From Pseudomonas abieticivorans (GTDB taxonomy: Bacteria; Pseudomonadota; Gammaproteobacteria; Pseudomonadales; Pseudomonadaceae), in contig NZ_CP094975.1 in the NCBI RefSeq assembly GCF_023509015.1, positions 3,651,501 to 3,715,500 of the forward strand: a DNA stretch of 64,000 bases, written 5' to 3'. Position numbers and translations under genes: made by a program. Below the pieces are notes generated by a model. It was not told the DNA's origin and made no database searches. It saw only the letters and a program-made list of their open reading frames with translations. Of the stretch, positions 4,515-64,000 are shown piece by piece; position 1 is the first letter of the stretch; each line of letters starts with the position of its first letter.

Positions 4515-6385
<1,871 letters not shown>

Positions 6386-6559
6386 GAATGACTCACAGTG
6401 AAGGAGAAACAGGACCCGCGCCGCTCGTGTGCAACTGAACGAGCATGTAGGGCATTTCGCAATGCTGGCAACCGTTATAATGACCCGGCATTTTAACCGT
6501 CAAGCCAGGCGTGCTCCATCGGTATCGAGCCACGCCGCTTTATTTTCTGGAGAATTTAC

Positions 6560-7039
6560 ATGCCCTCGTTCGACGTAGTGTCCGAGCTGGACAAACACGA
6601 AGTCACCAACGCCGTGGAAAACGCGGTCAAGGAACTCGATCGCCGCTACGACTTGAAAGGTAAAGGCAGCTTTGAATTCAAGGAGCTGACCGTCACCCTG
6701 ACTGCCGAAGCCGATTTCCAGCTGGAAGCGATGATCGAAATCCTCAAGCTGTGCCTGGTCAAGCGCAAGATCGACGTGCAGTGCCTGGAAGCCAAGGACG
6801 CCTATGCCTCGGGCAAGCTGATGAAGCAGGAAGCCACCCTGCGCGAAGGCATCGACAAGGAGCTGGCGAAGAAGATCGTCGCCCACATCAAGGACGCCAA
6901 GCTCAAGGTTCAGGCCGCCATCCAGGGCGAGCAGGTGCGTGTCACTGGCAAGAAGCGCGACGACCTGCAAGAAGCCATCGCGGCCTTGCGTGCCAAGGAC
7001 TTCGGCATGCCGCTGCAGTTCAACAACTTCCGCGACTGA
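6560..7039 (+). CDS. yajQ: YajQ family nucleotide-binding protein
   Basis: The 159-residue protein matches YajQ in length and begins [11 protein letters not shown], with [18 protein letters not shown] and a C-terminal [16 protein letters not shown](NNFRD). YajQ-type proteins bind nucleotides, and members in Xanthomonas and Pseudomonas bind cyclic-di-GMP and modulate transcription through partner regulators. A good ribosome site (GGAGAATTT) precedes the ATG. The gene lies alone between two divergent or separately spaced units. Confidence 0.95.
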
Positions 7040-7166
7040 CCCCGGCCGGCTCGCCTGCACGGGGAACCTCTGTTCCCCGCAGGCGTCCGAGGCCCTGTGT
7101 GTGGCTGAAACGTTTTGGCTTCAGCCGCCCTGGACTGCATTCGCCGTTGGGCGTTAGGAGAGCAAT

Positions 7167-8006
7167 ATGGATTTGAACAACGAAGTCGACCACCTGGTGA
7201 AAGCTTCCCAGGCCTGGATCCCGATGATCATGGAATACGGCAGCCGGGTGTTGCTGGCGGTCGCGACCTTGGCCATCGGTTGGTGGCTGATCAACAAGGT
7301 CACTGCCAACATCGCCAAGCTGCTGGCCATGCGCAACGCCGACCTGGCGCTGCAAGGCTTCATCAGCAGCCTGGCCAACGTCATCCTGAAGATTTTACTG
7401 GCCATCAGTGTCGCCTCGATGATCGGTATCGAGACCACCTCCTTCGTTGCCGCCATTGGTGCCGCGAGTTTGGCGGTGGGCCTGGCGTTGCAAGGCAGCC
7501 TGGCGAACTTCGCCGGTGGCGTGCTGATTTTGCTGTTTCGCCCTTTCCGCATCGGCGACTGGATCGAGGCGCAAGGCGTGGCGGGTACCGTGGACAACAT
7601 CATGATCTTCCATACGGTGTTGCGTACGGGTGACAACAAGACCGTGATCATGCCCAACGGCAACCTGTCCAACGGCATCATCACTAACACCAACCGCCAG
7701 CCGACCCGCAAGATTACCTACGACATCGGCGTGGACTACGACGCGGACCTGCAAAAAGCCCGTGGCATCCTGCTGGACCTGGCCAAGGACCCGCGCGTGC
7801 TGGCCACCCCGGCCCCCGAGGCCGTGGTGTCTGCCTTGGGCGACAGCTCGATCACCGTGTCGCTGCGTATCTGGGTGAACACGCCGGACTTTGGCGGCGT
7901 GACCAACATGCTTAACAGCGAAATCCGCGACCGCCTGCGGGCCGAAGGGATCGATATCCCGTTCCCGCAACGTGTCGTAAGGGTTGTGTCTGAAGCGAGC
8001 GCGTGA
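7167..8006 (+). CDS. mscS: Small-conductance mechanosensitive channel MscS
   Basis: The 279-residue protein has the MscS plan: three membrane helices (about 25-120), a pore helix rich in Gly/Ala (AAIGAASLAVGLALQGSLANFAGG, shown here only by its core GLALQGSLANF) and a cytoplasmic vestibule starting PFRIGDWIE. The loop VIMPNGNLSNGIITN is the family signature. MscS opens under membrane tension and protects cells from hypo-osmotic shock. GGAGAGCAAT precedes the ATG. It converges on ampG, with a GC-rich palindrome between the two. Confidence 0.94.
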   Translation: MDLNNEVDHLVKASQAWIPMIMEYGSRVLLAVATLAIGWWLINKVTANIAKLLAMRNADLALQGFISSLANVILKILLAISVASMIGIETTSFVAAIGAASLAVGLALQGSLANFAGGVLILLFRPFRIGDWIEAQGVAGTVDNIMIFHTVLRTGDNKTVIMPNGNLSNGIITNTNRQPTRKITYDIGVDYDADLQKARGILLDLAKDPRVLATPAPEAVVSALGDSSITVSLRIWVNTPDFGGVTNMLNSEIRDRLRAEGIDIPFPQRVVRVVSEASA

Positions 8007-8046
8007 AGTTGGGTGTGCTTGGCCTGAGGATTGAGTAAAGGCCACC

Positions 8047-8068
8047 ACCGGCCGCCCGCGCGGCCGGT
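8047..8068. terminator. GC-rich palindrome between convergent mscS and ampG
   Basis: ACCGGCCG and CGGCCGGT form an 8-bp perfect stem around a six-base loop in the 70-base gap between two convergent genes. No U-run follows on either strand, so it is a weak terminator candidate at best. Confidence 0.35.
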
Positions 8069-8076
8069 TGCCGCCG

Positions 8077-9621
8077 TTACTGGGTCTCTTGCGAAGCGCC
8101 TAAGGCTTCAAGCCTGCCCCGCCGATTCTCCTGATGCCAATGCAAGGCAATCAGCAGCAACGTCGGCACGCCCAGCACCGCGGTAATCAGGAAGAAGTTG
8201 TGGTAGCCGAACTTCTCCACCATCACCCCCGAATACCCGCCAATCAGGCGCGGCAACAGCAGCATGATCGAGCTGAGCAGGGCGTATTGGGTGGCCGAGA
8301 ACTTGAGGTTGGTGAGGCTCGACAGGTAGGCCACGAACGCCGAAGTGGCCATGCCGGAGCTGAAGTTGTCCAGGGAAATGGTCACCACCAGCATCTGGAT
8401 GTTCGGGCCCATGTCGGCCAGCATCAGGAACAACAGATTGGTCGCAGCCGAAGCTACGCCGCCGATGAACAGGATCGGCAGGATGCCGAAACGCACAATC
8501 AGCAGCCCGCCAAAGCCGGCACCGGCCAGGGTCATGATCAGGCCGAAGACCTTGCTCACGCTGGCGATCTGGTCCTTGGTGAAGCCCTGGTCGATGTAGA
8601 ACACGTTGGCCATCACGCCCATCACCGTGTCAGACATCCGGTAGGTGGCGATCAGCCCCAGCAGCAGCAGGGCCTGCCAGCGGTAGCGCACCACGAAATC
8701 GTTGACCGGCGTCAGCACCGGCGCCAGGCCCCGGCGGCCCATGGCCGACAGGCATAGCGCGGTCAGGATGATGTAAAGGATCGCACGCAGGAACGCCCGG
8801 TCGGTCAGCAGCAAGTCCAGCACGCTCTCGCCGTTGAACAACACGGCGGCAAAATCGGTGTTGTACAGCTGGGTGAACATCGCCGGCACTGACACCAACA
8901 GGATGATCAACACGAACACCGACACCAGTTGGTGGGTGAAGGTGTAGCGCCCGGCCGACAGCTGCGTGCGCAGCGGCACGGCCGGTTCACGCATCAACAG
9001 CGTGGTAATCAGCGCCGGGACCATCAGCACGCCGAACAGCAAATAGGTGCCCGCCCAGGCCTTGTGCAGGTAGGCGTAACCGGTGGAGCCAAAGGCCTCG
9101 GCGAAAAACAGCGCGCCGGCGGTGGCCAGTAGGGCTGCCACCCGGTAGCCGGCCATGTAACTGGCAGCCAGGGCCGCCTGGCTATTGTCTTCGGCGATTT
9201 CCAGGCGATAGGCGTCTACAGCGATGTCTTGAGTGGCGGAGGCGAAGGCCACCATCACGGCAATCGCGATCAACCAGGACAGATGCTTTTGCGGGTCGCA
9301 GAAACTCATGCCGATCAGGCCGACGATCACCAACGTCTGTGCCAGTACCAGCCAGGAGCGGCGGCGCCCCAGGCGAGCGAGCACAGGCAGGCGCCACTGG
9401 TCGAGCAATGGTGACCACACCCACTTGAAGGCGTAGGCAAGGCCGATCAGGCTGGCGTAGCCAATGGTCTCGCGAGCGACACCGGCCTCGCGCAACCAGA
9501 CGGAAAGAGTTGAAAATACCAGCATGTACGGCATGCCGGCAGCAAAGCCAAGCAACAGCAGCACAAGCGTCGAGGGGCTGGCATAAGCGGCGAGCGCGGC
9601 GCGCCAGGTTTTACGGGGCAT
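8077..9621 (-). CDS. ampG: Muropeptide permease AmpG (MFS)
   Basis: A 514-residue membrane protein with about 12-14 hydrophobic segments. Family signatures are LLLGFAAGMPYMLV, GLAYAFKWVWSPLLD and SATQDIAVDAYR (about 150-161), which are characteristic of AmpG. It imports GlcNAc-anhydromuropeptides from the periplasm for cell-wall recycling; in Pseudomonas this feeds AmpR-controlled AmpC beta-lactamase induction. The ATG follows TTTTGTTTTCGTAAACTGAGGCAG, where GAGG is the likely ribosome site. Neighbours MscS and the Atl protein are in the usual Pseudomonas order. Confidence 0.94.
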   Translation of the reverse strand: MPRKTWRAALAAYASPSTLVLLLLGFAAGMPYMLVFSTLSVWLREAGVARETIGYASLIGLAYAFKWVWSPLLDQWRLPVLARLGRRRSWLVLAQTLVIVGLIGMSFCDPQKHLSWLIAIAVMVAFASATQDIAVDAYRLEIAEDNSQAALAASYMAGYRVAALLATAGALFFAEAFGSTGYAYLHKAWAGTYLLFGVLMVPALITTLLMREPAVPLRTQLSAGRYTFTHQLVSVFVLIILLVSVPAMFTQLYNTDFAAVLFNGESVLDLLLTDRAFLRAILYIILTALCLSAMGRRGLAPVLTPVNDFVVRYRWQALLLLGLIATYRMSDTVMGVMANVFYIDQGFTKDQIASVSKVFGLIMTLAGAGFGGLLIVRFGILPILFIGGVASAATNLLFLMLADMGPNIQMLVVTISLDNFSSGMATSAFVAYLSSLTNLKFSATQYALLSSIMLLLPRLIGGYSGVMVEKFGYHNFFLITAVLGVPTLLLIALHWHQENRRGRLEALGASQETQ

Positions 9622-9675
9622 GGGCTGGAATCTGCCTCAGTTTACGAAAACAAAGCGCGCACTCTAACCGCATGC

Positions 9676-10044
9676 CTACTCCGGGCGCCAGCCATGGCGA
9701 CCTATATCCACACGATTATTCATGATTCGGATACCTTCGGCGCGCAGCCGGGCGCGTTGTTCCTCGCCGCCAACGGTGCCGGACGCCAAGCTTATCCGAC
9801 CACCGGCAGCAATCACTCGGTGCCAGGGTAGGGTGCTGCCCTCGGGCAACTGGCTCAAGGTACGCCCCACCCAGCGCGCAGCCCGCCCCAGGCCTGCCAT
9901 TTCGGCGATTTGCCCGTAGGTCACCACGTGCCCCTCAGGCACCTGGGCCAGTGCGGTATACAGCGCCGTGCGCCGGCTGGCGGCCGGGTCTTCGGGGCTA
10001 TTGTCACCAAACTGTTGCAATTGAGAGGGGAACTCATCTGGCAT
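9676..10044 (-). CDS. Alkyltransferase-like protein (Atl/YbaZ, MGMT fold without the active cysteine)
   Basis: The 122-residue protein matches the C-terminal DNA-binding domain of O6-alkylguanine-DNA alkyltransferases: VPEGHVVTYGQIAEMAG holds the helix-turn-helix and RWVGRTLSQ follows. The active-site PCHR motif reads PWHRV (73-77), with Trp74 in place of the alkyl-accepting Cys. This is the diagnostic change of ATL proteins, which bind O6-alkylguanine and hand the lesion to nucleotide excision repair instead of repairing it directly. It is transcribed leftwards, upstream of ampG. Confidence 0.92.
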   Translation of the reverse strand: MPDEFPSQLQQFGDNSPEDPAASRRTALYTALAQVPEGHVVTYGQIAEMAGLGRAARWVGRTLSQLPEGSTLPWHRVIAAGGRISLASGTVGGEEQRARLRAEGIRIMNNRVDIGRHGWRPE

Positions 10045-10124
10045 TCGTCGGTCAGTCCTTGCTCAGGTCTTTTCCATCTGGATAATGCCCGATTTTTTTC
10101 GCGAACCGAGCCTTGAATCCGCTT

Positions 10125-11132
10125 ATGTTGTCTAGAACCTTACTGTGCCTTGCTGTTGTCAGCTCATCTTCCGTGGCCCTGGCCGATACCGTCTGGATGA
10201 AAAACGGTGACCGCCTGACCGGCAAGATCACCGTGTTCGATGGCGGCAAGCTGATGCTGGATACCCCCTACGGCGGCTCGATCCCGTTGGACTGGAAGCA
10301 GGTCAAAACCCTGGAAAGCGACCAGGAACTGCTGGTCAAGCAGGATGCCTACAACGGCGAAAAGGCCAAGGCGCTCAAGCCGGCCGATGAGGGCAAGGTT
10401 ACCTTGCAGAACGGCGAGGCACCCAAGACCGTGGAGCTGGCCAGCATCCAGCAGATCATGAAGCCCAAGCCATTGGTGGAAGACTTCACGATCAAGGGCA
10501 ATATTGATGCGGCACTGGACTTCAAGCGCGCCGACACCAATACCGACGACTACAACATCGCCTTCAAGACCACCGCGCGCAACGGCCGCTGGCGCCACAC
10601 GGCAGACGGCGAGTACAACCGCGAAGCCACCGACGACGTGGTGTCGACCAACAACTGGAACGCGCAATACGCCCTGGACCGCTTCCTCACCGACAAGTGG
10701 TTCTGGCAGGGGCGGGTGAGCTACAAGCGCGACTTTGTCGAGGATCTCTCCCGCCAACGCACCCTCGGTACGGGCCCTGGCTACCAGTTCTGGGACGACG
10801 AACTGGGCGCCTTCTCCCTGGGCTCGCTGCTTAACCGCAGTGACTATGAGTTTGCCGACGGCGAGAAGCAGAACTTCTACGCGGTGGCGATGAAATGGTC
10901 CTACAACCGTTTCCTGATCGGCAAGACGGTCGAATTTTTCACCAACGGCGAAGTGGGCAAGCCGCTCAGTGGCGTGGCCGACTACAGCCTGGATTCGGAA
11001 GTGGGCCTGCGCTACAAGGTCACCCAGTGGGCGTCGCTGAACGTGAAGTATGAGAAGGACCTGATCACCGGTACCAATAATCAGGACCTCAATACCAGCC
11101 GCTATACCGCAGGTATTGGCGTCACGTTCTAA
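10125..11132 (+). CDS. DUF481 family outer-membrane-like protein
   Basis: The 335-residue protein begins with a signal peptide (MLSRTLLCLAVVSSSSVALADT, cleavage after ALA). An N-terminal section DTVWMKNGDRLTGKIT is followed by a DUF481 region of alternating aromatic and polar strands ending KVTQWASLNVKYEKDL and a final aromatic residue (GVTF), as in beta-barrel outer-membrane proteins. I prefer the ATG at 10125 over a TTG at 10113 because it opens directly into the signal peptide. The function of the family (YdiY and relatives) is unknown; YdiY is acid-induced in E. coli. Confidence 0.82.
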   Translation: MLSRTLLCLAVVSSSSVALADTVWMKNGDRLTGKITVFDGGKLMLDTPYGGSIPLDWKQVKTLESDQELLVKQDAYNGEKAKALKPADEGKVTLQNGEAPKTVELASIQQIMKPKPLVEDFTIKGNIDAALDFKRADTNTDDYNIAFKTTARNGRWRHTADGEYNREATDDVVSTNNWNAQYALDRFLTDKWFWQGRVSYKRDFVEDLSRQRTLGTGPGYQFWDDELGAFSLGSLLNRSDYEFADGEKQNFYAVAMKWSYNRFLIGKTVEFFTNGEVGKPLSGVADYSLDSEVGLRYKVTQWASLNVKYEKDLITGTNNQDLNTSRYTAGIGVTF

Positions 11133-51819: not shown

Positions 51820-53154
51820 TCAAATAACCCCCGCCTTCTTCCAGCCCAGGTAGCGCGACACCAGCTCTGCACCCAGCTCACCCGGCCGGGCGTCGAGCAC
51901 CGGCACACCGTGGGCATCGAGTTTTTCGTGCAGGCTGTTGCGCGCGTTCAGGTAGTCGATGCTGCCGCAGTATGTCAGCGCGTCCTGCCAGGTGTGCACC
52001 GGCGCCTGGCGCAGGGTGTCGAGCACTTCCTCGCGCAGGCTGGCCACCAGCACTCGGTGCCGGGTGGACAACTGGCGCACCGCGCTGAGGAGTTCTTCGT
52101 CGTCTTCATCGCGCAAGTTGGTCACCAGCACCACCAGGGCGCGACGTTTCTGCCGGGCCAGTAACAGCCGGGCCGCCGCGGTGTAGTCGGCCGGGCGCTG
52201 GCTGGTGTCCAGGTCGTACACGGCATTGAGCAGCGCGTTGAGCTGTGGGTTGCCTTTTACCGGTGCAAGAAAGCGCGTTTGCTTGCCAGCGAAGGTCGCC
52301 AGGCCCACCGCGTCGCCTTGGCGCAGGGCCACGTAGCTGAGCAGCAGGCAGGCATTGAGCGCATGGTCGAAATGTGCCAGCTCGCCGTCCTGGCTGCGCA
52401 TGCGGCGCCCGCAATCGAGCAGGAAGATGATTTGCTGGTCGCGCTCGTCCTGGTACTCACGGGCGATGGGCATGCGTTGCCGGGCGGTGGCTTTCCAGTC
52501 GATCTGGCGCAGGCTGTCGCCTTCGCGAAATTCGCGCAGTTGATTGAACTCCAGGCCCTGGCCACGGCGTTGACGCTGGCGAATGCCCAGTTGGCTGAGC
52601 CAGTTGTCCACGGCCAGCAGTTGGGCACCGTGCAGGCGGGCGAAGTCGGGGTACACCCGGGTGGCGCTGTGCACCGCCAGGTAGCGGCGCTGCTGCCAAA
52701 GCCCCAGCGGGCTGGGCAACTGCACTTCGCAGCGGTTGAATGCATAGTGGCCGCGGCGCACCGGTTGCAGCCGGTAGCCCAACTGGCTGAGCTGGCCGGG
52801 TTGCAGGGCGATGGCCTGGGGCAGGCTGTCCAGGTTCAGGCCGTCCGGGACATGGTCGAACACGCGCAGGGTCAGCGGGTTGCGCAGGGCATGGCTGACC
52901 TCCAGGCGCACCTCGCTCCAGCGGCCCAGGGCCAGGCTGCCGGGCAATTGCCGGGTGACTTGCGGCGAGGGCAGGCGGCTGACCAGCCAGCCGTCGAGCA
53001 GGCAGACCGCGACCAGCGCCAGCAGCATGCCGTAGGCAATTGCGTCCAGGCTGGCCGGCACCGCAAGCCCCAGGGCCTTGCAACTGCCCAGCACGATGCA
53101 CAGCGCCAGCAGTGCGCCGAGCCAGCCGAGCAACAGCCGCGATGGTTTGATCAC
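51820..53154 (-). CDS. DUF58 domain protein
   Basis: The 444-residue protein has two N-terminal membrane helices and a DUF58 region: LEFNQLREFREGDSLRQIDW, ATARQRMPIAREYQDERDQQ and a VWA-like IIFLLDCGRRM (metal-site DxG, last Ser replaced). DUF58 proteins are partners of MoxR ATPases. GTG 53154 overlaps the moxR stop by four bases (GTGA). A longer frame upstream lies wholly in moxR. Confidence 0.85.
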   Translation of the reverse strand: MIKPSRLLLGWLGALLALCIVLGSCKALGLAVPASLDAIAYGMLLALVAVCLLDGWLVSRLPSPQVTRQLPGSLALGRWSEVRLEVSHALRNPLTLRVFDHVPDGLNLDSLPQAIALQPGQLSQLGYRLQPVRRGHYAFNRCEVQLPSPLGLWQQRRYLAVHSATRVYPDFARLHGAQLLAVDNWLSQLGIRQRQRRGQGLEFNQLREFREGDSLRQIDWKATARQRMPIAREYQDERDQQIIFLLDCGRRMRSQDGELAHFDHALNACLLLSYVALRQGDAVGLATFAGKQTRFLAPVKGNPQLNALLNAVYDLDTSQRPADYTAAARLLLARQKRRALVVLVTNLRDEDDEELLSAVRQLSTRHRVLVASLREEVLDTLRQAPVHTWQDALTYCGSIDYLNARNSLHEKLDAHGVPVLDARPGELGAELVSRYLGWKKAGVI

Positions 53155-54227
53155 AGGCGCGGCGCCGCGACCTGGTCGAGCAGTTGCCGCAGCACCTGGT
53201 CGACCGACAGCCCCTCGATGTCCAGCTCCGGTGACAACCGCACCCGGTGGCGCAGCACGGCCAGGGCGCAACCCTTGATGTCGTCGGGCAGCACGAACTC
53301 GCCGCCACGCAGCAACGCCCGTGCGCGACCGCCGCGCACCAGGGCGATCGAAGCCCGAGGCCCGGCCCCCAGCGCCAGGCCCGGCCAGGTGCGGGTGGCA
53401 CGGGCCAGGCGCACGGCGTAGTCGAGCACCTGTTCGTCAATCGGCAGGTCACTGGCGATGCGTTGCAGGGCGACCACGTCCTTGGCCTGCAGCAGGGTGC
53501 GCAGCGGTTGCACGTCGAGCATGTCGGCGCGGGTCGAGCGGCTGACCTGGCGCACCATGTTCAGTTCCTGGTCGGCGTCGGGGTAGTCCATGCGCAACTT
53601 GAGCATGAACCGGTCAAGCTCGGCCTCGGGCAGCGGGTAAGTACCCTCCTGCTCCAGCGGGTTTTGCGTGGCCAGCACCATGAACGGCGGGGCGATGGGC
53701 AGGGCGCGACCTTCCAGGGTGACCTGGCGTTCTTGCATGGCTTCCAGCAGCGCGGCCTGGGTCTTGGCTGGCGCCCGGTTGATTTCGTCGGCCAGCAGCA
53801 GGTGGGTGAACAGCGGCCCCTTGCGCAGCTTGAACTGCTCGGTCTGCAGGTCGTACACCGCATGCCCGGTGACATCGCTGGGCATCAGGTCAGGAGTGAA
53901 CTGGATGCGCGCGAAGTCCCCGCCAAAGCACCGGGCCAGGGCCCGCACCAGCAAGGTCTTGCCCAGGCCTGGCACGCCTTCGAGCAGCACGTGGCCGCCG
54001 GCGATCAGCGCCGTGAGCACGTCGTCGATGACGTTGACCTGGCCGATCAAGGCCTTTTGCAGCTCCTGGCGCAAGGCCTGGGCCAGTTGGCTTGCGCGAT
54101 GGCGCTGCTGGGCAATGTGTTCGGCCGAGGGGGCGCTGGCCGCCGGGGCGTCACCGGGGATGTCATGGGAAGAGTCGCTCGTATGTTCCGGAGCCTTGCT
54201 AACTGTTAAAAGCGTTTTATCTTCCAT
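53151..54227 (-). CDS. MoxR family AAA+ ATPase
   Basis: The 358-residue ATPase has Walker A GVPGLGKTLLVRALA, Walker B LLLADEINRAPAKTQAAL and sensor ATQNPLEQEGTYPLPEAELD. MoxR proteins work as chaperones that insert cofactors or mature complexes, usually with a VWA/DUF58 partner as here. It is the last gene of the core region; lower-GC accessory genes begin beyond its start. Confidence 0.92.
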   Translation of the reverse strand: MEDKTLLTVSKAPEHTSDSSHDIPGDAPAASAPSAEHIAQQRHRASQLAQALRQELQKALIGQVNVIDDVLTALIAGGHVLLEGVPGLGKTLLVRALARCFGGDFARIQFTPDLMPSDVTGHAVYDLQTEQFKLRKGPLFTHLLLADEINRAPAKTQAALLEAMQERQVTLEGRALPIAPPFMVLATQNPLEQEGTYPLPEAELDRFMLKLRMDYPDADQELNMVRQVSRSTRADMLDVQPLRTLLQAKDVVALQRIASDLPIDEQVLDYAVRLARATRTWPGLALGAGPRASIALVRGGRARALLRGGEFVLPDDIKGCALAVLRHRVRLSPELDIEGLSVDQVLRQLLDQVAAPRL

Positions 54228-54318
54228 AAATCAACCACTTACCTAATCTAATCTTTTTTTGAGGTTTTTGAGGCGCGGCATCGCTTAGTACCATGGTTAT
54301 CTGCACGTGTGAGCTCTC

Positions 54319-54498
54319 ATGTACTTCGGCGACTTCATGGAAAAATCATGGATCTTTAGGCTGCTACAGATTGAACCGGGAGCACCTTACAGGGCTTCAG
54401 AGTGCCATTGCTGCGACAAGTATTACGAGGTCACCATAGCCCTTGGAAGCTTGGCCCGTCAGATTTTGGAGGTTGGGTGGGACGCCCGATCTGAATAG
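54319..54498 (+). CDS. Possible small Cys-containing protein (low confidence)
   Basis: A 59-codon frame from ATG 54319 contains ECHCCDKYY and ends in the 3' end of herA, on the opposite strand. GTGAGCTCTC is a poor ribosome site. The cysteine cluster may be chance. It lies in the first non-core sequence after moxR. Confidence 0.2.
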   Translation: MYFGDFMEKSWIFRLLQIEPGAPYRASECHCCDKYYEVTIALGSLARQILEVGWDARSE

Positions 54499-56137
54499 TC
54501 ACCGGAATTGGGAAATCTACACCTACCAATGCCACCTCACCTTGCTTCAGATTGGGCAAGAAAGCGGCGGCTGAACGATCCAGCTCTCCGCAGGCACGTT
54601 CGACCACTTCTCGGTCACGGTCATTGGTCAGCCGATGCACCAGCAACGTACCCATCTGACTCAGCACTCCTTCTGTGATGTCTCGCGGTCGTTGGGTAAC
54701 CAGGCAGATGTTGAGTCCGTACTTTCGTCCTTCTTTCGCGATGAGTTCGAACGCGTCCAAGTTCTGAACGTCGTCCTCACTCCCCAAGGTTTTTCCTAGG
54801 AAATTGTGAGCCTCGTCCAAGATGACGATCAACGGGCGCTGCCTGAAAGACTCGTTACGTGCTCGAACCAACAACAGTCTGCCGATGGCGTTGGCGATGA
54901 CTTCTCTCGCGTTGAATTCATAGCCGACCGAGCTGAGGCATATTCTGAATAGCCGCTTCTCCCCAGCAATAAATTCATCAAGATGTTCAACCAGGCTCGG
55001 AAGGCCTTCTGCTGGGCGAAATATACTGCTCAGCGAAGGAGAATCCATAACGCTCATGATTCGTGTCATGAGGGAGGAGCAGTAGGATAGCTCTGTACTG
55101 GCAGCGCCCCATCTACTCATGTCGTTGTTATGCCCCGTCGGGAAGCAGCATTCCTCGACAATTTGCCGAACCAGCATCCCTGGATCAAAGGGAAGATTCG
55201 GATTACCTACCCGGTTGGCGTTGTCGTCCCTATTCATCGCTCGACGAAAATCAGCTTTGAGTTGGCCTACTTTCGGAACGTACCCTCCCGTGAAGATATC
55301 TGGAGCCAATGCCGCAAGCCTCAGGCTTTTGATGGCTTCTCTGAGTTTCGGGCCCTGCGTTTTACCTGAAGGCTGAAAGAGGGCTATGAAATCCGTCTCA
55401 TTAAAGCATGTGGGCGGAATGGCCACCTCAAGGGAGGCAGGAGTCCGATGTAGTGGGTTTCCGAGATGGTGATGTGTTGTGTCTTCCCCTTCCAGTGACC
55501 GGTATTCCCCGGTAGCGTCCACAAGCACGATCTTGCAGGCATATCGACGACACTCCTGGATGAGCTTTGAAGTCGTCCAGCTTTTCCCACCGCCAGTTGA
55601 GCCCAAGATCGCGCAGTGGCGCCCAAAGATTTTTTCTGGTGTTACAGCAATCGCGAAACCGCCGTCCCCAGAGACGTGTCCAAGATCGAGCGCTACGCGA
55701 GGGGGCTCTCCATTTACCCCGCTCGAAATCAGGGTCGGGATTTTGGAGATAAACGAACCAGGTGCAGAGTAGACCCGGTCGCCCAGTCGTGGGTAGGAGC
55801 TCACGCCCGCAGTAACTTTCAAGGTGTGTGGGTGAACAGACCCCAGCAGTCGGATAAAGCCGATCGCGTCAATAGCATGCGTGCCAGCAAAGTCTTGGGA
55901 AATCTCGGTACGCTCGCGATCAGGTAGGTTCACCTCGGTGATGCGTCCTAAGAGCACCGCCTGCTGACCCTCGATGAGCACCAGTTCCCCTACCTCGCCC
56001 TTGCCGTAGCGATTTTGACCGAGATATCGACCGCTGTTCTCTCCAGCATGTGCCAAGTTGATTTTGATCAACTGCGCAGCCACGCTGGTGACCACCCCGA
56101 TTTTAAGCGTGCTAAGGAGTATTCCTTCTGGGGACAT
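54431..56137 (-). CDS. HerA-like ATPase of a SIR2-HerA anti-phage system
   Basis: The 568-residue protein matches the HerA/FtsK-type translocases: an N-terminal HAS-barrel-like region (to about 130), Walker A AILGSTGGGKSWTTSK (179-186), Walker B LIVILDEAHNF (436-445) and a TQRPRD segment (481-486). HerA forms a hexameric ATPase; with a SIR2 partner it builds a large NADase complex that depletes NAD when phage infects. It starts 2 bases after the sir2 stop, which fits a two-gene operon. Base composition is lower in GC than in the core genes. Confidence 0.88.
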   Translation of the reverse strand: MSPEGILLSTLKIGVVTSVAAQLIKINLAHAGENSGRYLGQNRYGKGEVGELVLIEGQQAVLLGRITEVNLPDRERTEISQDFAGTHAIDAIGFIRLLGSVHPHTLKVTAGVSSYPRLGDRVYSAPGSFISKIPTLISSGVNGEPPRVALDLGHVSGDGGFAIAVTPEKIFGRHCAILGSTGGGKSWTTSKLIQECRRYACKIVLVDATGEYRSLEGEDTTHHHLGNPLHRTPASLEVAIPPTCFNETDFIALFQPSGKTQGPKLREAIKSLRLAALAPDIFTGGYVPKVGQLKADFRRAMNRDDNANRVGNPNLPFDPGMLVRQIVEECCFPTGHNNDMSRWGAASTELSYCSSLMTRIMSVMDSPSLSSIFRPAEGLPSLVEHLDEFIAGEKRLFRICLSSVGYEFNAREVIANAIGRLLLVRARNESFRQRPLIVILDEAHNFLGKTLGSEDDVQNLDAFELIAKEGRKYGLNICLVTQRPRDITEGVLSQMGTLLVHRLTNDRDREVVERACGELDRSAAAFLPNLKQGEVALVGVDFPIPVTIQIGRPTQPPKSDGPSFQGLW

Positions 56138-56139
56138 GA

Positions 56140-57405
56140 TTACCTACCGATCCGTTTGACTGCGTTCGCCAAATTCTCAGCTGGCGAAGCCGTGCGTAGG
56201 TGGGGGATATGCGCGGCCAGATCGCTGAATGAACCACTAACAAAATGGACGTCGAAACCACGCTGAGCGAGATCGCGGAATTTTCCCCAGTAGGCGCTCG
56301 ATCCATTATCCCCACGATTGTGGACATGGCTGATGCCACTGTAGTCGCAAAGAATCAGCTTCAGGCTAGGGTTGGATTGCAAGGCAGAATAGATCGGTTC
56401 TGAAAGGTGGTCATCGTTAAACCCGAATCCTGACACAACCAGACAGCTGTTTGGTTGACGTAAAAACTCCAGAAATCTTGAAAGCAGCTCCAAGTGGGGT
56501 TGAAGAAACGCTTGCTGGTATTTTCCTTTTGCGGGATATATCAGGCACGCGTTTTCCGGCGTCGGTCGGCTGTCCTCATAGATTTCATGACCATCACGGC
56601 TCCAGCTGACTGATCCGTGTAGCTTCAGCAGTTGAAAAATGCCTTCGGCAAACTCGTGGCTGTCTGCCTCCCGGCGCACGATGTCGTACGTGAAATGTTT
56701 GCCGTCAAACCGGCGTCTGCGGGTGTAGGAAAATCCGTCAATAATGACCATACCCAGTTCCGACGCTGCCGTTTCAAAACACATGTCATAGTTTGTCGTA
56801 AACACCTTCAGGCGCGGGTCACGAACCCTTCTCCTAGCCAGCTTCTGGAGGAGTTCACGATATGCCGATATGTCTGAAGTGGGCAGAGTAATGAACGTTG
56901 AGCAAGCGTGTAGGATTTGCTCCTTCACGCGTGCGACAAACTCTTCGACGACTGGGTCGTCATTGAACGCCAGGTAGGCGTCGCACTGTGATAAGAAATG
57001 CTCAATGTTCGGATTATCGCGCTCGGCGTAACGGACACGCTCAGTAACCTGCTGGCCGGCAGCTGTCAGCGCATGGGTCTGCGGGTCACACATCGAGTCT
57101 TGCCATAGCTTCCACATGCTAGGCCCGCCTGGGTTACCTAGAGATGTACCGCTTCCAGCAAAAAAACCTAAGTTAGGTACCTGAAGAGCAGACGAAAACA
57201 TCTCGCTAAGCCTATTCCTGTTCGAGCTGATCACATTTTCATCATCAGGCTCGACGCCCTTCAGGACTTGATAAGCCTCAGCTGTCAGCGGCATCCACTC
57301 ACTAGCACCTGGTGGAAGGTATGCCTGCTGCCCTTGGTACGTGGGTGGAAGAGGAATTACAGGCAGTCGTGGTGGAGGGACAAATGGAGGTGCATCGACT
57401 GGCAT
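56140..57405 (-). CDS. SIR2-domain protein of a SIR2-HerA anti-phage system
   Basis: The 421-residue protein has a Pro-rich N-terminus (1-35), then the SIR2 fold: FFAGSGTSLG (82-90, NAD-binding GxGTS), TTNYD (203-207, with catalytic-type Asn205), LHGS (262-265, catalytic-type His263) and SGFGFNDDHL (325-334). SIR2 of this kind hydrolyses NAD. It is the first gene, and HerA follows after 2 bases. Both genes are AT-richer than their left neighbours. This arrangement matches the SIR2-HerA defence family described in recent literature. No other defence gene is part of the operon. Confidence 0.88.
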   Translation of the reverse strand: MPVDAPPFVPPPRLPVIPLPPTYQGQQAYLPPGASEWMPLTAEAYQVLKGVEPDDENVISSNRNRLSEMFSSALQVPNLGFFAGSGTSLGNPGGPSMWKLWQDSMCDPQTHALTAAGQQVTERVRYAERDNPNIEHFLSQCDAYLAFNDDPVVEEFVARVKEQILHACSTFITLPTSDISAYRELLQKLARRRVRDPRLKVFTTNYDMCFETAASELGMVIIDGFSYTRRRRFDGKHFTYDIVRREADSHEFAEGIFQLLKLHGSVSWSRDGHEIYEDSRPTPENACLIYPAKGKYQQAFLQPHLELLSRFLEFLRQPNSCLVVSGFGFNDDHLSEPIYSALQSNPSLKLILCDYSGISHVHNRGDNGSSAYWGKFRDLAQRGFDVHFVSGSFSDLAAHIPHLRTASPAENLANAVKRIGR

Positions 57406-57761
57406 AGAACACGTTCCTGTGTTGTGAAATAAAAGCCATACAGCCCCGGCCTTTCAACCGTTCCCAAGCTGCCTGCTTGATATCTGCTTGGCATCATATC
57501 GCAAGCGGACTTAGCGACGTATGGCAGATCGCCTACACCGGAGCCGAGTCAGATGGGGAGTCCATGGGGAATCAACTAGGCCCCAAATCGTCGATCACAT
57601 GCAAGCTGGCGAGTGCTGATCTCGCGGTATCGCTGCCTTTGGAGTGAACCTCAACCTCCGATACCTAGCTCATCAAGTCCAGTCGCTAGTCATTTGTGAA
57701 AGCGAACTGAATGTGTTTATATCTGTATATTCGGTTATCCACATATCTAGGTCGATTGCTT
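57406..57761. promoter_or_regulatory. 356-base divergent region between sir2-herA and arsR
   Basis: No gene is supported. GCTTGATATCTGC... pairs with ATATCGCAAGC (57475-57506) around a 10-base centre, a possible operator or hairpin. The arsR promoter is expected at 57717-57750, where ATATCTGTATATTCGGTTAT and ACATAT form an AT-rich ArsR-like site. The sir2-herA promoter lies on the left side. Confidence 0.35.
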
Positions 57762-58112
57762 ATGAACCTTGCACCACACACCTTCTTCAAGTGCCTGGGA
57801 GACGAAACCCGCGCTCGGATCATGCTCATGCTGTCCGCAGAGGGTGAGCTGTGCGTGTGCGAGTTGATCTGGGCACTGGACGATAACCAGTCGAAGGTTT
57901 CCAGGCACCTTGCACAGTTGCGTGCTTGCGGGTTACTCGCGGATCGCAGGCAAGGTCAGTGGGTTTACTACCGGCTGCATCCCGAGCTGGAACAATGGGC
58001 GCTGGATGTTTTGAACGTCACTACGCAGGCCCACCTGTCTTGGGTTAACGATCATCAAGGACGGCTGGCTTCCATGGAAGACCGGCCCGTACGCCAGGCC
58101 TCCTGCTGCTGA
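57762..58112 (+). CDS. arsR: Arsenical resistance repressor ArsR
   Basis: The 116-residue protein has the metal motif ELCVCEL (Cys31-x-Cys33), a winged helix with [16 protein letters not shown] and a C-terminal SCC. ArsR binds As(III) and leaves the operator, so the operon is turned on. ATG 57762 is chosen; a longer frame upstream has no ribosome site. It is first in arsRBCHN. Confidence 0.95.
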
Positions 58113-58134
58113 CCTCCTGATCTGGAACATACTC

Positions 58135-59424
58135 ATGCTCATCGCTGCGTCGATATTCGTAGTTACGCTCGTCCTTGTTATCTGGCAACCCAAGGGGTTA
58201 GGTGTCGGTTGGAGCGCGGCAGTGGGTGCCGTTCTGGCACTACTGACTGGCGTCGTGAGTCTGGGGGATGTGCCGGTGGTGTGGCACATCGTCTGGAACG
58301 CTACCGCGACTTTCATCGCCGTAATCATCATCAGTTTGCTGCTTGATGAAGCGGGCTTCTTCAAATGGGCAGCGCTTCATGTCGCCCGCTGGGGCGGTGG
58401 GAAAGGCGGGCGCCTGTTTGCTTTGATGATCTTGCTCGGGGCAGCCGTCTCGGCGCTTTTCGCCAACGACGGCGCAGCACTGATCCTCACTCCCATCGTT
58501 ATAGCGATGCTCACGGCGTTGCGCTTTAGGCCTGCATCGACCCTGGCGTTCGTGATGGCCGCAGGCTTTATCGCCGATACCGCCAGTCTGCCCATGGTGG
58601 TGTCGAACCTGGTCAACATCGTTTCGGCTGACTTTTTCAGCGTAGGTTTCGGGGAGTACGCTTCAGTCATGTGGCCAGTGAACCTAGTGGCAGTGGCCGC
58701 GACGCTGTTCATGCTCTGGATGTTTTATCGAAAGGACATTCCCGCCCACTACGACGCGAATCAGCTTGAGGCGCCAGAGGCTGTGATTCGTGACCGGGCG
58801 ACTTTCATTGCTGGCTGGTGGGTGCTTGGCCTATTACTGGTTGGCCTGTTCGCACTGGAACCGCTAGGCATCCCCATCAGCGCCGTCGCTGCTGTGTGTG
58901 CGGTGATCCTGCTGGTCATCGCAGGGAAAGGCCACATCATCTCGACGAGGAAAGTCATCAAGCACGCACCCTGGCAGATCGTAGTGTTCTCGTTGGGCAT
59001 GTATCTGGTGGTCTACGGCCTGCGCAATGCTGGTCTGACTGACTCCCTCTCGGGGTTGCTTAACACGTTCGCCGAGCATGGACTGTGGGCCGCTACCTTG
59101 GGCACGGGCATCACCGCTGCGCTGCTGTCCTCGATCATGAACAACATGCCGAGTGTGCTTATCGGCGCTCTGTCCATTCAGGGTAGCGACGCCACCGGAT
59201 TGGTGCGTGAGGCCATGATCTACGCAAATGTCATCGGTTGCGATCTCGGCCCAAAAATTACGCCAATCGGAAGTCTGGCCACGCTGCTGTGGCTGCATGT
59301 CCTGGCGCAGAAAAATATCCGTATCACCTGGGGCTACTACTTCAAAGTCGGAAGCATCCTCACCCTCCCTATCTTGCTGCTAACGCTTGCGGCACTGGCG
59401 TTGCGGCTGAGCATTCCCGTCTAG
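58135..59424 (+). CDS. arsB: Arsenite efflux pump ArsB
   Basis: The 429-residue protein has 11-12 membrane helices and starts [37 protein letters not shown] and [17 protein letters not shown] are the ArsB signatures. It exports As(III) by the membrane potential or with ArsA; no arsA gene is present. Confidence 0.96.
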
Positions 59425-59433
59425 GAGATACCC

Positions 59434-59904
59434 ATGAAAGTACTGTTTATGTGCACGGCCAACAGCTGTCGGAGCGTTCTCTCGGAGGGGCTGTTCAACC
59501 ACTCGGCCCCGAATGGTTTTACTGCCGTTAGTTCAGGTAGCTTCCCTAGTGGACAACTGAATCCCCGCGCTGTGAGCACGCTACAAGCGCTGGCCATCGA
59601 CACCACAGATCTCTACAGCAAAGGCTCAGAGGTCTTTTCGGAGTCACCACCGGATGTGGTTATCACCGTCTGTGACAAGGCCGGGGGCGAGCCATGCCCG
59701 GTCTATTTTGGGCCTGCTGTCAAAAGCCACTGGGGCCTTGCCGACCCTTCCGATGTTGAAGGAACGGACAGCGACATACAGGCCGCATTTGACTCGACCG
59801 TCGTCCAGATCAGAAAGCGTTTCGAAGCGTTCTTCAGTCTGAATCATTCGACGCTTACGCCGCAGGAACTGAAGCGCGAGCTAGATCGTATAGGTGAGCT
59901 GTGA
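59434..59904 (+). CDS. arsC: Arsenate reductase ArsC, thioredoxin-linked (LMW-PTP type)
   Basis: The 156-residue protein has the P-loop MCTANSCRS (CX5R, Cys7-Arg13) and a second pair in [14 protein letters not shown]. It reduces arsenate to arsenite with thioredoxin. AGGAGATACCC precedes the ATG. Its stop overlaps the arsH start (TGATG). Confidence 0.95.
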
Positions 59905-60638
59905 TGGACGAATTTTCCTCGGAGAGCAGTCCGGATCTTCCAAATCTGGATCTTTCACTGGTTGATATCCCCACACTGGATCTGCTGCAGGGCCACGATC
60001 AACCGGCCCACAAGCCGCGTATTTTGTTGTTGTATGGTTCAACCCGTGAGCGCTCTTTCAGCAGGCTGTTGACTCAGGAGGCCGCACGCATCCTGACTCT
60101 AATAGGAGCCGAGGCCGTGATCTTCGACCCATCAGGTCTGCCTCTCCCTGATGACGCTCCGGAAGACCATCCAAAGGTAAAAGAGCTGCGGGATCTGGTT
60201 CTATGGTCGGAGGGACAGGTTTGGTGTTCGCCAGAGCGTCACGGTGCAATGTCTGCTGTGTTCAAAGCCCAAATCGACTGGATTCCTCTCACGATGGGGG
60301 CTGTGCGACCTAGTCAGGGTAAAACCCTTGCCGTAATGCAGGTCTGCGGTGGATCACAGTCCTTTAACACGGTAAACCAGCTGCGGATCCTCGGGCGCTG
60401 GATGCGGATGATCACCATCCCAAACCAGTCGTCAGTACCCAAGGCCTTCCTGGAGTTCGACGACGTAGGGCGTATGAAGCCATCTGCCTACTACGACCGT
60501 GTGGTGGATGTGATGGAGGAACTGATGAAGTTCACGCTGATGGTTCGGGGCCGGGAAACGTATCTGGTAGACCGCTACTCCGAGCGTAAGGAAAGCGCTG
60601 AGGCACTCTCGAAACGGGTCAACCAAAGATCGATTTGA
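59904..60638 (+). CDS. arsH: ArsH, NADPH-dependent FMN reductase / organoarsenical oxidase
   Basis: The 244-residue flavoprotein contains [20 protein letters not shown] (FMN site), [19 protein letters not shown] and [11 protein letters not shown]. ArsH oxidises trivalent aromatic and methyl arsenicals. ATG 59904 overlaps the arsC stop; GTG 59901 is an alternative. Confidence 0.94.
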
Positions 60639-60657
60639 GCCACCAAGGGGATAAAGG

Positions 60658-61212
60658 ATGAGCAACATCACCACAGTCAGGATTGCGCAGCTTTCGGACG
60701 CGCAAGCCATCCAGGCAATCTACGCACCGATGGTCGAGCGTACCGCGATTTCGTTCGAGCTAGAGCCCCCTCCAGTCGAAGAGATGGCCAAGCGGATTGA
60801 ATCGACTTTGCCGACTTACCCCTACCTCGTAGCGGAGCGAGACGGCCAGGTTATCGGCTATGCATACGCCAGTCAGCATCGTGCTCGTGAGGCCTATCGC
60901 TGGTCGGTCGACGTCACGGTCTATATAGCGCCAAACGCACACCGTAGCGGCGTTGGCCGGGCTCTCTATGACGTATTGCTGCCGACACTGGAGAGGCAAG
61001 GCTTTCACGCAGCCTATGCCGGGATCGCGCTACCCAACGATGGCAGCGTGGGGCTACACGAAGCACTTGGCTTCGCTCACATCGGTACGTATCCAGAAGT
61101 TGGATTCAAGCACGGCGTCTGGCATGACGTCGGGTATTGGCGAATTGCGCTGAATGTCACGAATCCGCCAAAACCGCCCGTGCCTTTCAGTGAGAGCAGC
61201 CCGAAACTTTAG
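60658..61212 (+). CDS. arsN1: GNAT N-acetyltransferase, ArsN1-like (arsinothricin resistance)
   Basis: The 184-residue protein has a GNAT fold of the phosphinothricin acetyltransferase type: YAPMVERTAISFELEPP, VDVTVYIAPNAHRSGVGRAL (acetyl-CoA binding) and GFKHGVWHDVGYW. In P. putida KT2440 an arsN1 gene beside arsRBCH acetylates arsinothricin, an arsenic-containing antibiotic. The context and sequence fit. AAGGGGATAAAGG precedes the ATG. Confidence 0.85.
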   Translation: MSNITTVRIAQLSDAQAIQAIYAPMVERTAISFELEPPPVEEMAKRIESTLPTYPYLVAERDGQVIGYAYASQHRAREAYRWSVDVTVYIAPNAHRSGVGRALYDVLLPTLERQGFHAAYAGIALPNDGSVGLHEALGFAHIGTYPEVGFKHGVWHDVGYWRIALNVTNPPKPPVPFSESSPKL

Positions 61213-61555
61213 ATGGTCGCACTCCAGGTCGGCAACTGACTTGGTCGTAATGAGTTGAACAGAATCCAATTTGACCCCGTATTCTTATCAAGACCTTGCC
61301 TGAGGTTGCTATTAGATTTCATTTTTCCGAGATGCTCAGCTTGCTATGAGCACGGGCTTGACTTGGGTACTGAGGATTTGAGTATGGGAAAGTGGTCAGG
61401 TCGAATGAAATTGGGTGGTCAAGTCGAATAGAATCAGGCAGGTCTAGTGAGTGTAATTAAACATGCAGGCCTTGGCAGAGTGGGCGATCCACTCAAAAAA
61501 AGCGCCCACAAAATGGCTTTGTGACAAGCCGATGTATGAATGGATGGATTCTTGA
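61213..61555. repeat. 343-base non-coding gap with degenerate direct repeats
   Basis: No gene is supported. GGTCAGGTCGAATGAAAT and GGTCAAGTCGAATAGAAT stand 23 bases apart at about 61395 and 61418. A third, weaker unit (GAACAGAATCCAATTTGACCC) is near 61258. Repeats of this kind are found at the ends of IS21-like elements, so this may be a decayed insertion end. No transposase remains here. Confidence 0.4.
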
Positions 61556-62080
61556 ATGTCGGATTCTTTGGCTATCTCCAACGAGATGCTGTCCAACCCT
61601 GTGGGCGTCAGTGCGCTCATCATTTCTCTTGCGTCCCTATTCATGACGGTCAATTTGTGGAAGCGAGCGAACCGTCCCATCTTGACGGCCAGAGTCACTA
61701 CCCACTCCGGAGGCTCTGAAGGGATTGCGCTGAACCTATTGATTGAGAACACTGGAAATCGCCCGGCCTGCGAAGTGAGGCTCAGAGCCAGGGAGCGGGA
61801 CGTCCTGGCTGCATTAGTCGATCCGACATCCACGCAATTGCCCAGCGATGCCAGGAGGTGTTTTTTTTCGAACATAATCATTCCTGTGCTAGCTAACGGA
61901 AAGACTGCATCCAATGCATTTGGCGTGCTCGGCGGGGAAAAGGCTACGTGGAGGAGCGGTGCCAAATTTTCTGTTCAAATACGGTATCGGGGCTTAGATG
62001 GAGGGACGTACCGAAGCAAAATGATCTTGGTCTTGTCCGATGACGCAGGATTTGCCCAGAGCTTCTGGGATGCTGAGTAG
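61556..62080 (+). CDS. Membrane-anchored protein of unknown function in the island
   Basis: The 174-residue protein has one N-terminal membrane helix (GVSALIISLASLFMTVNLW, about 17-35) and then a beta-rich region with NLLIENTGNRPACEVRLRAR, which resembles an immunoglobulin-like domain. No family is recognised. There is no clear ribosome site before the ATG. It lies between the ars genes and the KAP NTPase, in the same direction as both. Confidence 0.65.
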   Translation: MSDSLAISNEMLSNPVGVSALIISLASLFMTVNLWKRANRPILTARVTTHSGGSEGIALNLLIENTGNRPACEVRLRARERDVLAALVDPTSTQLPSDARRCFFSNIIIPVLANGKTASNAFGVLGGEKATWRSGAKFSVQIRYRGLDGGTYRSKMILVLSDDAGFAQSFWDAE

Positions 62081-62246
62081 TGCTGTTGGGTGCTGACCAG
62101 GAAGGTTCCCTGACCGACGTTGTATAGCGTCTCTCCCCATTCTGAGATACTGTCGATTTGACACCGTCAACTTTGATCAGTCCTGCTGTGCTTTCTGAGG
62201 CAGCATGGAGGTCATTTTGGCACTGTGAGATTCCAAGGAGGGAAAT

Positions 62247-64000
62247 ATGTGGGTTGATAATGAAACAGAAACGGATTTTCTAAACTTCTCCGGAGTGGCC
62301 GACACCGTCGCCGAAATCATCTATCAGGCGGATGGTCGGCCAATCTCAATCGGTGTCTCAGGGGCTTGGGGCGCCGGTAAGTCCTCGATGATCAAACTGA
62401 TCCAATCGTCGCTTCGAACCCCGCCTGAGCCGAAAGAGAAACCATCAAAAGATTTCGTATTCGTTGAGTTCAATGCATGGCTCTACCAAGGCTACGATGA
62501 CGCCAGGGCTGCGCTCATGGACGTTATTGCGACCCGCCTTGAGGAGGAAGCGCTAAAGCGTCAAACAGGTTTGGAGAAAGCCGGCGAGCTGATCGCACGA
62601 GTCAATTGGCTTCGTGCGGCCAAAATGGTTGGTGGAGCAGCATTCGCGTTGGCCAGCGGCGTACCTCCTCCTGGATTTATGGGTGAAGTTTTCAGTTTGG
62701 CAGGCCGAGTCTGGTCAGGTGGGGTCGATCAAGCAGTAGTTTCCGACATTCACGATAAGGCCGAAGATGCTGCAAAGCTCGCCAAGGATCTTGTCCGGGA
62801 AAAGCCACCGCGATCATCGCCGCCACGGGAAATTCAAGCTCTAAGAGACAATTTCGAATCCATTCTCGACGAGCTAGGTGTGACGCTGGTCGTGCTGATC
62901 GACGATCTGGATCGCTGTCTCCCAGAAACGACGATTTCGACGCTTGAGGCCATCCGACTGTTCCTTTTCCTGCGTAATACCGCATTCGTCATCGCCGCTG
63001 ATAACGAGATGATCAAGCACGCAGTTCGCCGGCATTTCAGTGGTGTCCCTGACGACGTCTTGGTCACCAGCTATTTTGACAAACTGATCCAAGTTCCCAT
63101 CCGTGTTCCTCCTCTCGGTACGCAGGAAGTAAGGGCTTACATGATGATGCTGTTTTTGGAGAACAGTACTTTGGATAAGCCAACTGTTGAGCAGATACGC
63201 ATCCGGGTTCGAGATCAGCTCAGGACGACATGGCAAGGTAACCGTGTCGACAGAGCCTTCATGCAGGGGCTTTACGATTCTTACCCAACTGAGTTGATCG
63301 GCAAGTTCGATACCGCCGAACGTTTGGCGGCTGTGATGACCTCGGCCTCCGGAATCCAAGGTAACCCACGGTTGATCAAGCGCTTCCTGAACGCTCTCGC
63401 CATCCGCATGACCATCTCGCGTGCTCAAGGTGTTGGAGTCGATGAGGCTGTGCTCGTCAAGTTGATGCTCTTTGAACGTAGTGGTAATCCCAAAGCCTAT
63501 GAGGAGTTGATGAAAGCGGTCGCCTCTCACAAGCAGGGCAAGCCAGCAATGCTTCAGGAATGGGAGGAGAGCTTGAAGCAGGGCAAAGCGCTTACGCTTC
63601 CCCAACCGTGGGAGCACCCTTTCGTTAAGGATTGGTTGGCGTTACCTCCGGCGTTAGCCGATAAGGATCTGCGAGGCGCCATTTACGTAAGTCGCGAGCA
63701 CGCGCCGATTATCACTGATGAGGATCGCCTCTCCTCAGAGGCTGCCGAGTTACTGGCGGCATTACTTGAAATGCCCGATATGGCCTACCAGCTCAGAGAG
63801 AGACTTGCGACCATCGCGCCGCTCGAAATCACAGTTTTGATGGATCGTCTCTTGGACAGGGCTAGCACTGAACAGGAGTGGGGGGTGCCAGCCATTCTTG
63901 AGGCTCTCCTTGTTGTCGCGAAGCTAGATGGACAACAAGGACTTCGCCTTGCTGCGTTTCTGAAAGAGCGTCCGCCGGCGCAGATTCAAGCTGGCATCGT
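62247..64000 (+). CDS. KAP family P-loop NTPase, QatA-like (partial, runs off the window)
   Basis: The frame is open from ATG 62247 to the last base (at least 584 residues). AAGGAGGG is an excellent ribosome site. It starts MWVDNETETDFLNFSGVAD, with Walker A GVSGAWGAGKSSMIKL (37-52), FNAWLYQGYDDAR (75-87), a hydrophobic insert (about 123-152) and Walker B VVLIDDLDRCLPET (215-228). This is the KAP NTPase family, named after Kidins220/ARMS and PifA; QatA of the QatABCD anti-phage system belongs to it. The other Qat genes (QatB, QueC-like QatC, TatD-like QatD) would lie beyond 64000. Without them the Qat call is only likely. Confidence 0.8.
   Translation, partial: MWVDNETETDFLNFSGVADTVAEIIYQADGRPISIGVSGAWGAGKSSMIKLIQSSLRTPPEPKEKPSKDFVFVEFNAWLYQGYDDARAALMDVIATRLEEEALKRQTGLEKAGELIARVNWLRAAKMVGGAAFALASGVPPPGFMGEVFSLAGRVWSGGVDQAVVSDIHDKAEDAAKLAKDLVREKPPRSSPPREIQALRDNFESILDELGVTLVVLIDDLDRCLPETTISTLEAIRLFLFLRNTAFVIAADNEMIKHAVRRHFSGVPDDVLVTSYFDKLIQVPIRVPPLGTQEVRAYMMMLFLENSTLDKPTVEQIRIRVRDQLRTTWQGNRVDRAFMQGLYDSYPTELIGKFDTAERLAAVMTSASGIQGNPRLIKRFLNALAIRMTISRAQGVGVDEAVLVKLMLFERSGNPKAYEELMKAVASHKQGKPAMLQEWEESLKQGKALTLPQPWEHPFVKDWLALPPALADKDLRGAIYVSREHAPIITDEDRLSSEAAELLAALLEMPDMAYQLRERLATIAPLEITVLMDRLLDRASTEQEWGVPAILEALLVVAKLDGQQGLRLAAFLKERPPAQIQAGI

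Follow-up and report, generated by a model that had tools for sequence, protein, structure and literature searches.

The window analysed here, a stretch of 64,000 nucleotides of the Pseudomonas abieticivorans genome (contig NZ_CP094975.1, forward-strand positions 3,651,501 to 3,715,500), very probably holds an intact anti-phage operon of the SIR2-HerA ("Nezha") family, carried as the 3′-terminal cargo of a GInt-type island, and its two products would be expected, from what their relatives do, to co-assemble, cleave NAD+ and halt phage growth. We observed the gene pair itself, its family and fold, its invariant catalytic residues, the marks of purifying selection, the co-inheritance of the two genes and the anatomy of the island. 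At its 3′ end the island also appears to bear a translation-start cassette, which is the more novel of the two parts.

The sir2-herA pair, its family and its relatives

Both genes lie on the reverse strand and begin with ATG: sir2 (56140..57405) encodes a protein of 421 amino acids of the SIR2-like NADase family, and herA (54431..56137) a HerA/FtsK-type ATPase of 568 amino acids. A gap of two bases (TC) separates the sir2 stop from the herA ATG. A putative ribosome-binding site, AGGA (57415..57418, reverse strand), stands 9 nt before the sir2 ATG, and the AGG ahead of herA sits within the 3′ end of sir2. The initial annotation had described two intact genes in the same direction, 2 bases apart, and both frames and all the key residues it named were recovered where it had put them, namely GSGTS at 84-88, N205 (in FTTNYD) and H263 (in KLHGS) in SIR2, and GSTGGGKS (Walker A, 179-186) and LIVILDEAHN (Walker B, 436-445) in HerA. 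When we compared the pair with its nearest named relative, in P. psychrophila (locus L006), dN/dS was 0.097 for SIR2 and 0.038 for HerA, synonymous sites being saturated for most of the other relatives. These low values mark purifying selection on both genes, which are thus no chance pair of open reading frames (ORFs). No terminator was found in a scan of 54100-57760 (shuffled sequences give 3.4), nor any Rfam match at the gathering threshold in 54000-64000.

In alignments that include the window proteins, G84, S85, G86, S88, N205 and H263 of SIR2 are invariant in 72 of 72 sequences and T87 is kept in 67; G179, T181-S186 and D441-H444 of HerA are invariant in 59 of 59, the variable motif positions being S180 (49/59), the hydrophobic residues 436-440 and N445 (57/59).

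The claim that this is a complete two-gene SIR2-HerA module is borne out by defence models, PDB relatives and predicted folds. The run of defence models on the locus that had been suggested as a check placed both proteins in the SIR2 and HerA families: the best PADLOC model for HerA is PDLC04103 (E=9.4e-157, residues 10-568) and for SIR2 PDLC04075 (E=9.6e-76, residues 55-419). Pfam recognised DUF87 and HerA_C in HerA and SIR2_2 in SIR2. A sequence search of the PDB with SIR2 gave three matches (8w9l, 8j4u and 8yhx), all SIR2 chains of the SIR2-HerA type, and with HerA ten, including 8wiv, 8j4u, HerA chains of other systems and archaeal HerA. When the predicted structures, modelled as single chains, were compared with known ones, SIR2-HerA entries ranked top for both proteins, with a wide Z gap for SIR2. 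Membership of the SIR2-HerA ("Nezha") anti-phage family is therefore well supported by sequence and model, in what looks like a branch of its own, well below the NCBIfam equivalog cut-offs; our literature searches for SIR2-HerA found no tested member of this branch. The pair shares with E. coli SIR2-HerA (8j4u, 8su9, 8sub and 8uae) the two-gene composition, the folds and the motif residues, but identity in the structural alignment is only 20-23%, both window proteins score below those cut-offs, and the N-terminus of the window SIR2, which includes a Pro-rich tail, is the longer one, residue 28 of the model pairing with residue 2 of the chain.

This tail (residues 1-35) had been called unusual in the initial annotation. 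The tail is real, with 12 prolines, and lies ahead of a clade-wide extension: a stretch of 67-136 residues precedes GxGxS in 117 of the 120 listed SIR2 homologues, the other three being without the motif measured, and contains the alignment consensus GxxAYLxPGxxxWxPL, which begins at about residue 25 in the window protein. The segment before this consensus varies in length among relatives and, by a regex-based measure, is at least 20% Pro in 29 of the 50 closest relatives versus 9 of the 67 further measurable ones. We thus rejected the Pro-rich tail as a unique feature, since it is common among the 50 nearest relatives, and it appears to be a lineage trait. Because AGGA stands 9 nt before the ATG and the conserved motif starts from about residue 25, the tail is very probably translated; a later start at M38 was rejected, as the motif begins upstream of it. 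QatB of the same island, whose N-terminus is encoded at 99-300 of L002 (the DNA that continues past the window's end), also begins with a Pro-rich stretch, as does SIR2 at 57300-57405.

At E≤1e-3 we counted 2446 SIR2 homologues and at least 3963 HerA homologues (the best 7996 candidates having been scored for HerA), of which 120 were listed for each protein. In a scan of species genomes, herA sequence adjoined sir2 in all 21 loci found. The two proteins are co-inherited: over 21 pairs the distances of one track those of the other (r=0.969, reached by none of 5000 permutations), in a test run without L015, L016 and L026 (broken frames) and without L079 and L080 (by length and identity the same contigs as L007 and L012). 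In P. fluorescens PS691 (L026, 8001-8542) a remnant joins SIR2 residues 22-105 to HerA residues 472-568, that is, an internal deletion. No neighbouring ORF of at least 150 amino acids is common to all 16 loci examined, smaller antidote genes not having been looked for, and we therefore regard the module as one of two genes. Six neighbour clusters of that size recur in two or more of the 16 loci, the widest in four (homologues of the HTH gene at L002 2798-3265). Among 58 of the 149 flanking ORFs, taken from 10 of the 16 loci, two are Phage_integrase by Pfam and 26 PADLOC families are matched at E≤1e-15, the 25 shown having one member each; the neighbour context is therefore mixed. A phage origin of the pair was rejected, since a match at E≤1e-10 occurs in three of 50,697 phage records and in no case extends over 80% of the query.

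Mode of action and alternative explanations

From what is described for relatives, SIR2 and HerA would co-assemble into one complex, in cells infected by phage HerA would open or activate the active site of SIR2, which would cleave NAD+ by means of N205 and H263, and the infected cell would then no longer support phage growth. The Nezha complex is reported to consist of 12 SIR2 and six HerA subunits (12:6 in E. coli), the E. coli complex also having helicase and nuclease activities (PMC11559045), and HerA binding opens the NAD+ pocket, as cited in a review whose table marks one step as unclear (PMC12198126). In V. cholerae Nezha, N168A or H227A abolishes immunity, and immunity is lost on deletion of herA (PMC11559045); by motif and spacing these two residues correspond to N205 and H263. 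The system of the classical biotype also resides on a genomic island, with a second defence system as its neighbour (there Gabija). However, that island and host are different, the asparagine at 168 implies a shorter N-terminus, and the likeness is drawn from the published description.

Several points weigh against such an operon working here as its relatives do. Both proteins score far under the NCBIfam equivalog cut-offs (134.5 of 500 bits for NF042942 SIR2_antiphage and 155.1 of 800 bits for NF042943 HerA_antiphage), so that the branch differs from that for which the models were cut, and trigger and assembly may therefore differ too. HerA proteins of other systems come close behind in the structure comparison, from row 17, and the HerA fold alone is therefore not decisive. 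In three of the 21 relatives herA is broken (L015 and L016) or shares in an internal deletion (L026), and loss is thus tolerated. Finally, the review cited above has Sir2-HerA degrading phage genes (PMC12198126), so that more than NAD loss may be at work. Such accounts of nuclease activity and gene degradation leave room for a DNA-directed effect; yet that a SIR2-HerA defence complex would protect mainly through DNA degradation or translocation, and not through NAD depletion, seems unlikely to us, given that single SIR2 active-site changes abolish immunity in V. cholerae, with the same cited for homologous systems (PMC11559045), and that N205 and H263 are invariant in the branch.

We give similarly little credence to a main role in excluding rival mobile elements or in keeping the island in place, as opposed to a role against lytic phages. 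The pair does ride a mobile-type island together with QatABC, and its branch is rare and patchy: 11 of 398 Pseudomonas genomes match at E≤1e-20, and four of the 398, the present one included, at 74% identity or more. Relatives occur on plasmids as well (46 of 72,556 records at E≤1e-20), of which 17 are predicted to be conjugative and eight are from Klebsiella, at about 54% identity. However, the relatives tested in the literature act on phages (PMC12198126, PMC11559045), and no gene of 150 amino acids or more accompanies the pair throughout the 16 loci, a size range that leaves smaller antidote genes aside. A recent inactivation or silence of the module in the present strain is still less probable. 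We found no sigma-70-like promoter in 54100-57760, but this was a weak consensus scan (shuffled sequences average 2.6), and dN/dS is low, with no damage to the reading frames, start signals or catalytic residues. A reading without any role in defence, with HerA as a HerA-NurA-type translocase in DNA repair and SIR2 as a protein deacylase, is very improbable: SIR2-HerA entries rank higher in both fold comparisons, the PADLOC defence models match along almost the full length, moxR and ars genes flank the pair, and its presence is patchy and not core.

The GInt-type island and its cargo

The initial annotation had set the pair next to core moxR, where lower-GC sequence starts. The drop in GC is there (from 0.68-0.69 over 52-54 kb to 0.52-0.58 from 54 kb onward), but the pair is better placed at the 3′ terminus of a GInt-type island. 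Low GC extends from the 5′ end of moxR to near 74.87 kb, in window coordinates continued into L002, a length of about 20.7 kb with 54.0% GC against about 63% in the flanks. From the left, the order is start cassette, herA, sir2, ars genes, a gene for a 174-amino-acid protein, qatA, qatB, qatC, small ORFs, a metallophosphoesterase gene, ginD, ginC, ginB, ginA and DUF4350. Judged from this layout, a mobile island would have inserted between DUF4350 and moxR, with sir2-herA as its last, 3′-terminal cargo.

The gin-like operon occupies the far end, on the reverse strand of L002: ginA at 9587-10732 (381 amino acids), ginB at 7908-9587 (559), ginC at 6028-7911 (627) and ginD at 5603-6031 (142). Homologues of all four stand in the same order beside DUF4350 in five of six other gin loci (L084 and L086-L089), L090 having GinA-C only. 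In GInts three of the four Gin proteins are of the tyrosine-recombinase type; here GinA is clearly recognisable as an integrase by its matches (Pfam 1.5e-20, PHROG 1.6e-30), and GinC weakly so (below the Pfam cut-off, PHROG 1.4e-10). GinB had no match in Pfam, NCBIfam, PHROGs or the PDB, which counts against an integrase label, and its R236, R372 and Y405 are invariant across seven operons, in integrase-like settings. The opposite end, from the herA stop to the leader ATG (54228..54430, reverse strand), has 45.8% GC, with 38.1% in 54228-54290, and bears a conserved AGGTAAG whose AGG lies about 14 nt before the ATG. GInts have imperfect direct repeats of 10-17 nt at their ends. Examined by eye, the repeat search having been run on each end separately, the two ends here share TATGA/TACGA and 8-bp inverted arms: GCTCCGGA (54187..54194, reverse strand) is a putative recombination-site arm at the 3′ end, and TCCGGAGC, near ginA (L002 10867-10874), is its reverse complement.

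GInts, which belong to the Tn6571 family of transposons, carry defence systems in E. coli (PMC10121019). The present island is like those described by Bardaji and colleagues in 2017 (PMC5385486) in its tripartite plan: four gin-like genes form an operon at one end, the cargo follows ginD, the 3′ end is short and AT-rich, and relatives have an empty site. The gin proteins were likened to GinABCD by operon plan. The island is unlike the described ones in having the DUF4350/moxR junction as its target and a start codon with a leader at the 3′ end, neither of which appears in the accessible part of that paper.

Besides sir2-herA, the cargo includes a forward-strand group at 57711..61212 made up of arsR, arsB, a low-molecular-weight phosphatase-fold protein, an FMN-reductase-fold protein and a GNAT acetyltransferase. 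From the operon context we take the phosphatase-fold protein to be arsC-like and the FMN-reductase-fold protein to be arsH-like. The 174-amino-acid protein before qatA (61556-62080) had no match in Pfam, PADLOC or NCBIfam. qatA (62247..64000, forward strand) runs past the window end and matches PADLOC QatA at E=1.3e-141; qatB and qatC (L002 99-1001 and 998-2266) match PADLOC QatB and QatC, both above the NCBIfam cut-offs. No match to QatD, the TatD-like nuclease, was found in a scan of five ORFs lying between qatC and ginD; we therefore write QatABC, a set that may be a variant or may lack a part, and do not call the Qat system complete. A metallophosphoesterase, with a weak PADLOC match to PDC-S10, and an HTH protein are encoded at L002 2798-4199, and two named Pseudomonas loci also have homologues of both in the neighbourhood of sir2-herA (L006 4963-7239 and L010 12387-14996). 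They may form a further defence or regulatory pair.

A candidate start cassette at the moxR junction

The 3′ end of DUF4350 runs straight into moxR in 28 of 29 relatives with an empty site (the best-scoring of 77 matching genomes), L053 having given no DUF4350 match. In 26 of these 28 the DUF4350 frame ends in ATGA and would overlap the moxR ATG. No tRNA that could be the target was found in the window or in L002-L005. In the window genome the DUF4350 end is intact, and the position of the native moxR ATG in island-free relatives reads ACG. moxR (53151..54227, reverse strand) appears to have a start supplied by the island, an ATG and leader of 14 codons in all, MEDKTLLTVSKAPE (54186..54227, reverse strand), fused to it in frame.

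The same layout of AGGTAAG, ATG and the leader MEDKxxxTVSKAPE is conserved in the window (54186-54243) and in loci L092-L120. Of 398 genomes, 35 gave a match to the island 3′ end at E≤0.01, in two cases a very short one, and the figures that follow come from the best 30 of 37 places in these 35 genomes, the window's own included and the weakest left out. An AGGTAAG-like site precedes the cassette in all 30 loci. The cassette frame continues into MoxR in 22 and into other genes in four (a Glycos_trans_3N protein, a RibD_C-like protein below the Pfam cut-off and two YchJ-like proteins, one of them Pfam-tested), and it closes within 21-72 codons in the remaining four. The 30 distinct leaders have no in-frame stop, and the other two frames have stops in 29 and 30 of them. 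Third codon positions are the most variable, and pN/pS is 0.50 in frame versus 1.05 and 1.42 in the shifted frames. This substitution pattern appears coding-like, in a test that does not model the relatedness of the sequences.

We thus hypothesize that this Pseudomonas GInt family has a portable translation-start cassette at its 3′ end, composed of AGGTAAG, ATG and a 14-codon leader that overlaps the recombination arm: the crossover would destroy or endanger the native start of the target, and the cassette would restart the gene in frame as a chimeric protein, one cassette serving several unrelated targets, mostly moxR. We consider this probable, with three observations that speak against it. 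At about 14 nt, the distance from AGGTAAG to the ATG exceeds that of a usual ribosome-binding site; four of the 30 cassettes open into frames of just 21-72 codons; and 12 of the 22 moxR fusions have Met at codon 16, which we took for the native start, so that this start could still serve there.

Our literature searches, which were poor in subscription papers, found nothing on GInts with a start cassette or with moxR as target. For a GInt inserted at the 5′ end of a gene, expression would predictably be blocked but for an outward promoter of the gin operon, the available text mentioning no start codon (PMC5385486). SXT in prfC and IMEVchUSA3 in dusA seem to be precedents for the repair of a target's 5′ end, as the element gives the disrupted gene a new 5′ coding end, and a promoter (PMC8409611). 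In dusA, however, the native N-terminus gives way to a new one of the same length, whereas here a short leader is prefixed to several unrelated genes.

Six other regions with islands at the moxR site were surveyed through 60 of their 157 ORFs, using PADLOC and Pfam. Up to three of the 60 are of the GajA/OLD type, a BrxC-like protein and a PDC-S53 protein occur once each, and genes for efflux, pyocins and metabolism are also present; an ars set recurs in one island (G150). The cargo at this site is mixed, with defence genes recurring.

The sir2-herA pair is an intact representative of a SIR2-HerA branch for which we know of no tested member, with an N-terminal extension on SIR2, and it shows how such a module travels. 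If the start cassette is what it appears to be, an island carrying defence genes could insert within an operon or at the start of a gene and leave its target unsilenced. If the cassette is functional, MEDKxxxTVSKAPE at protein N-termini would be a signature by which such islands could be found and annotated protein starts checked.

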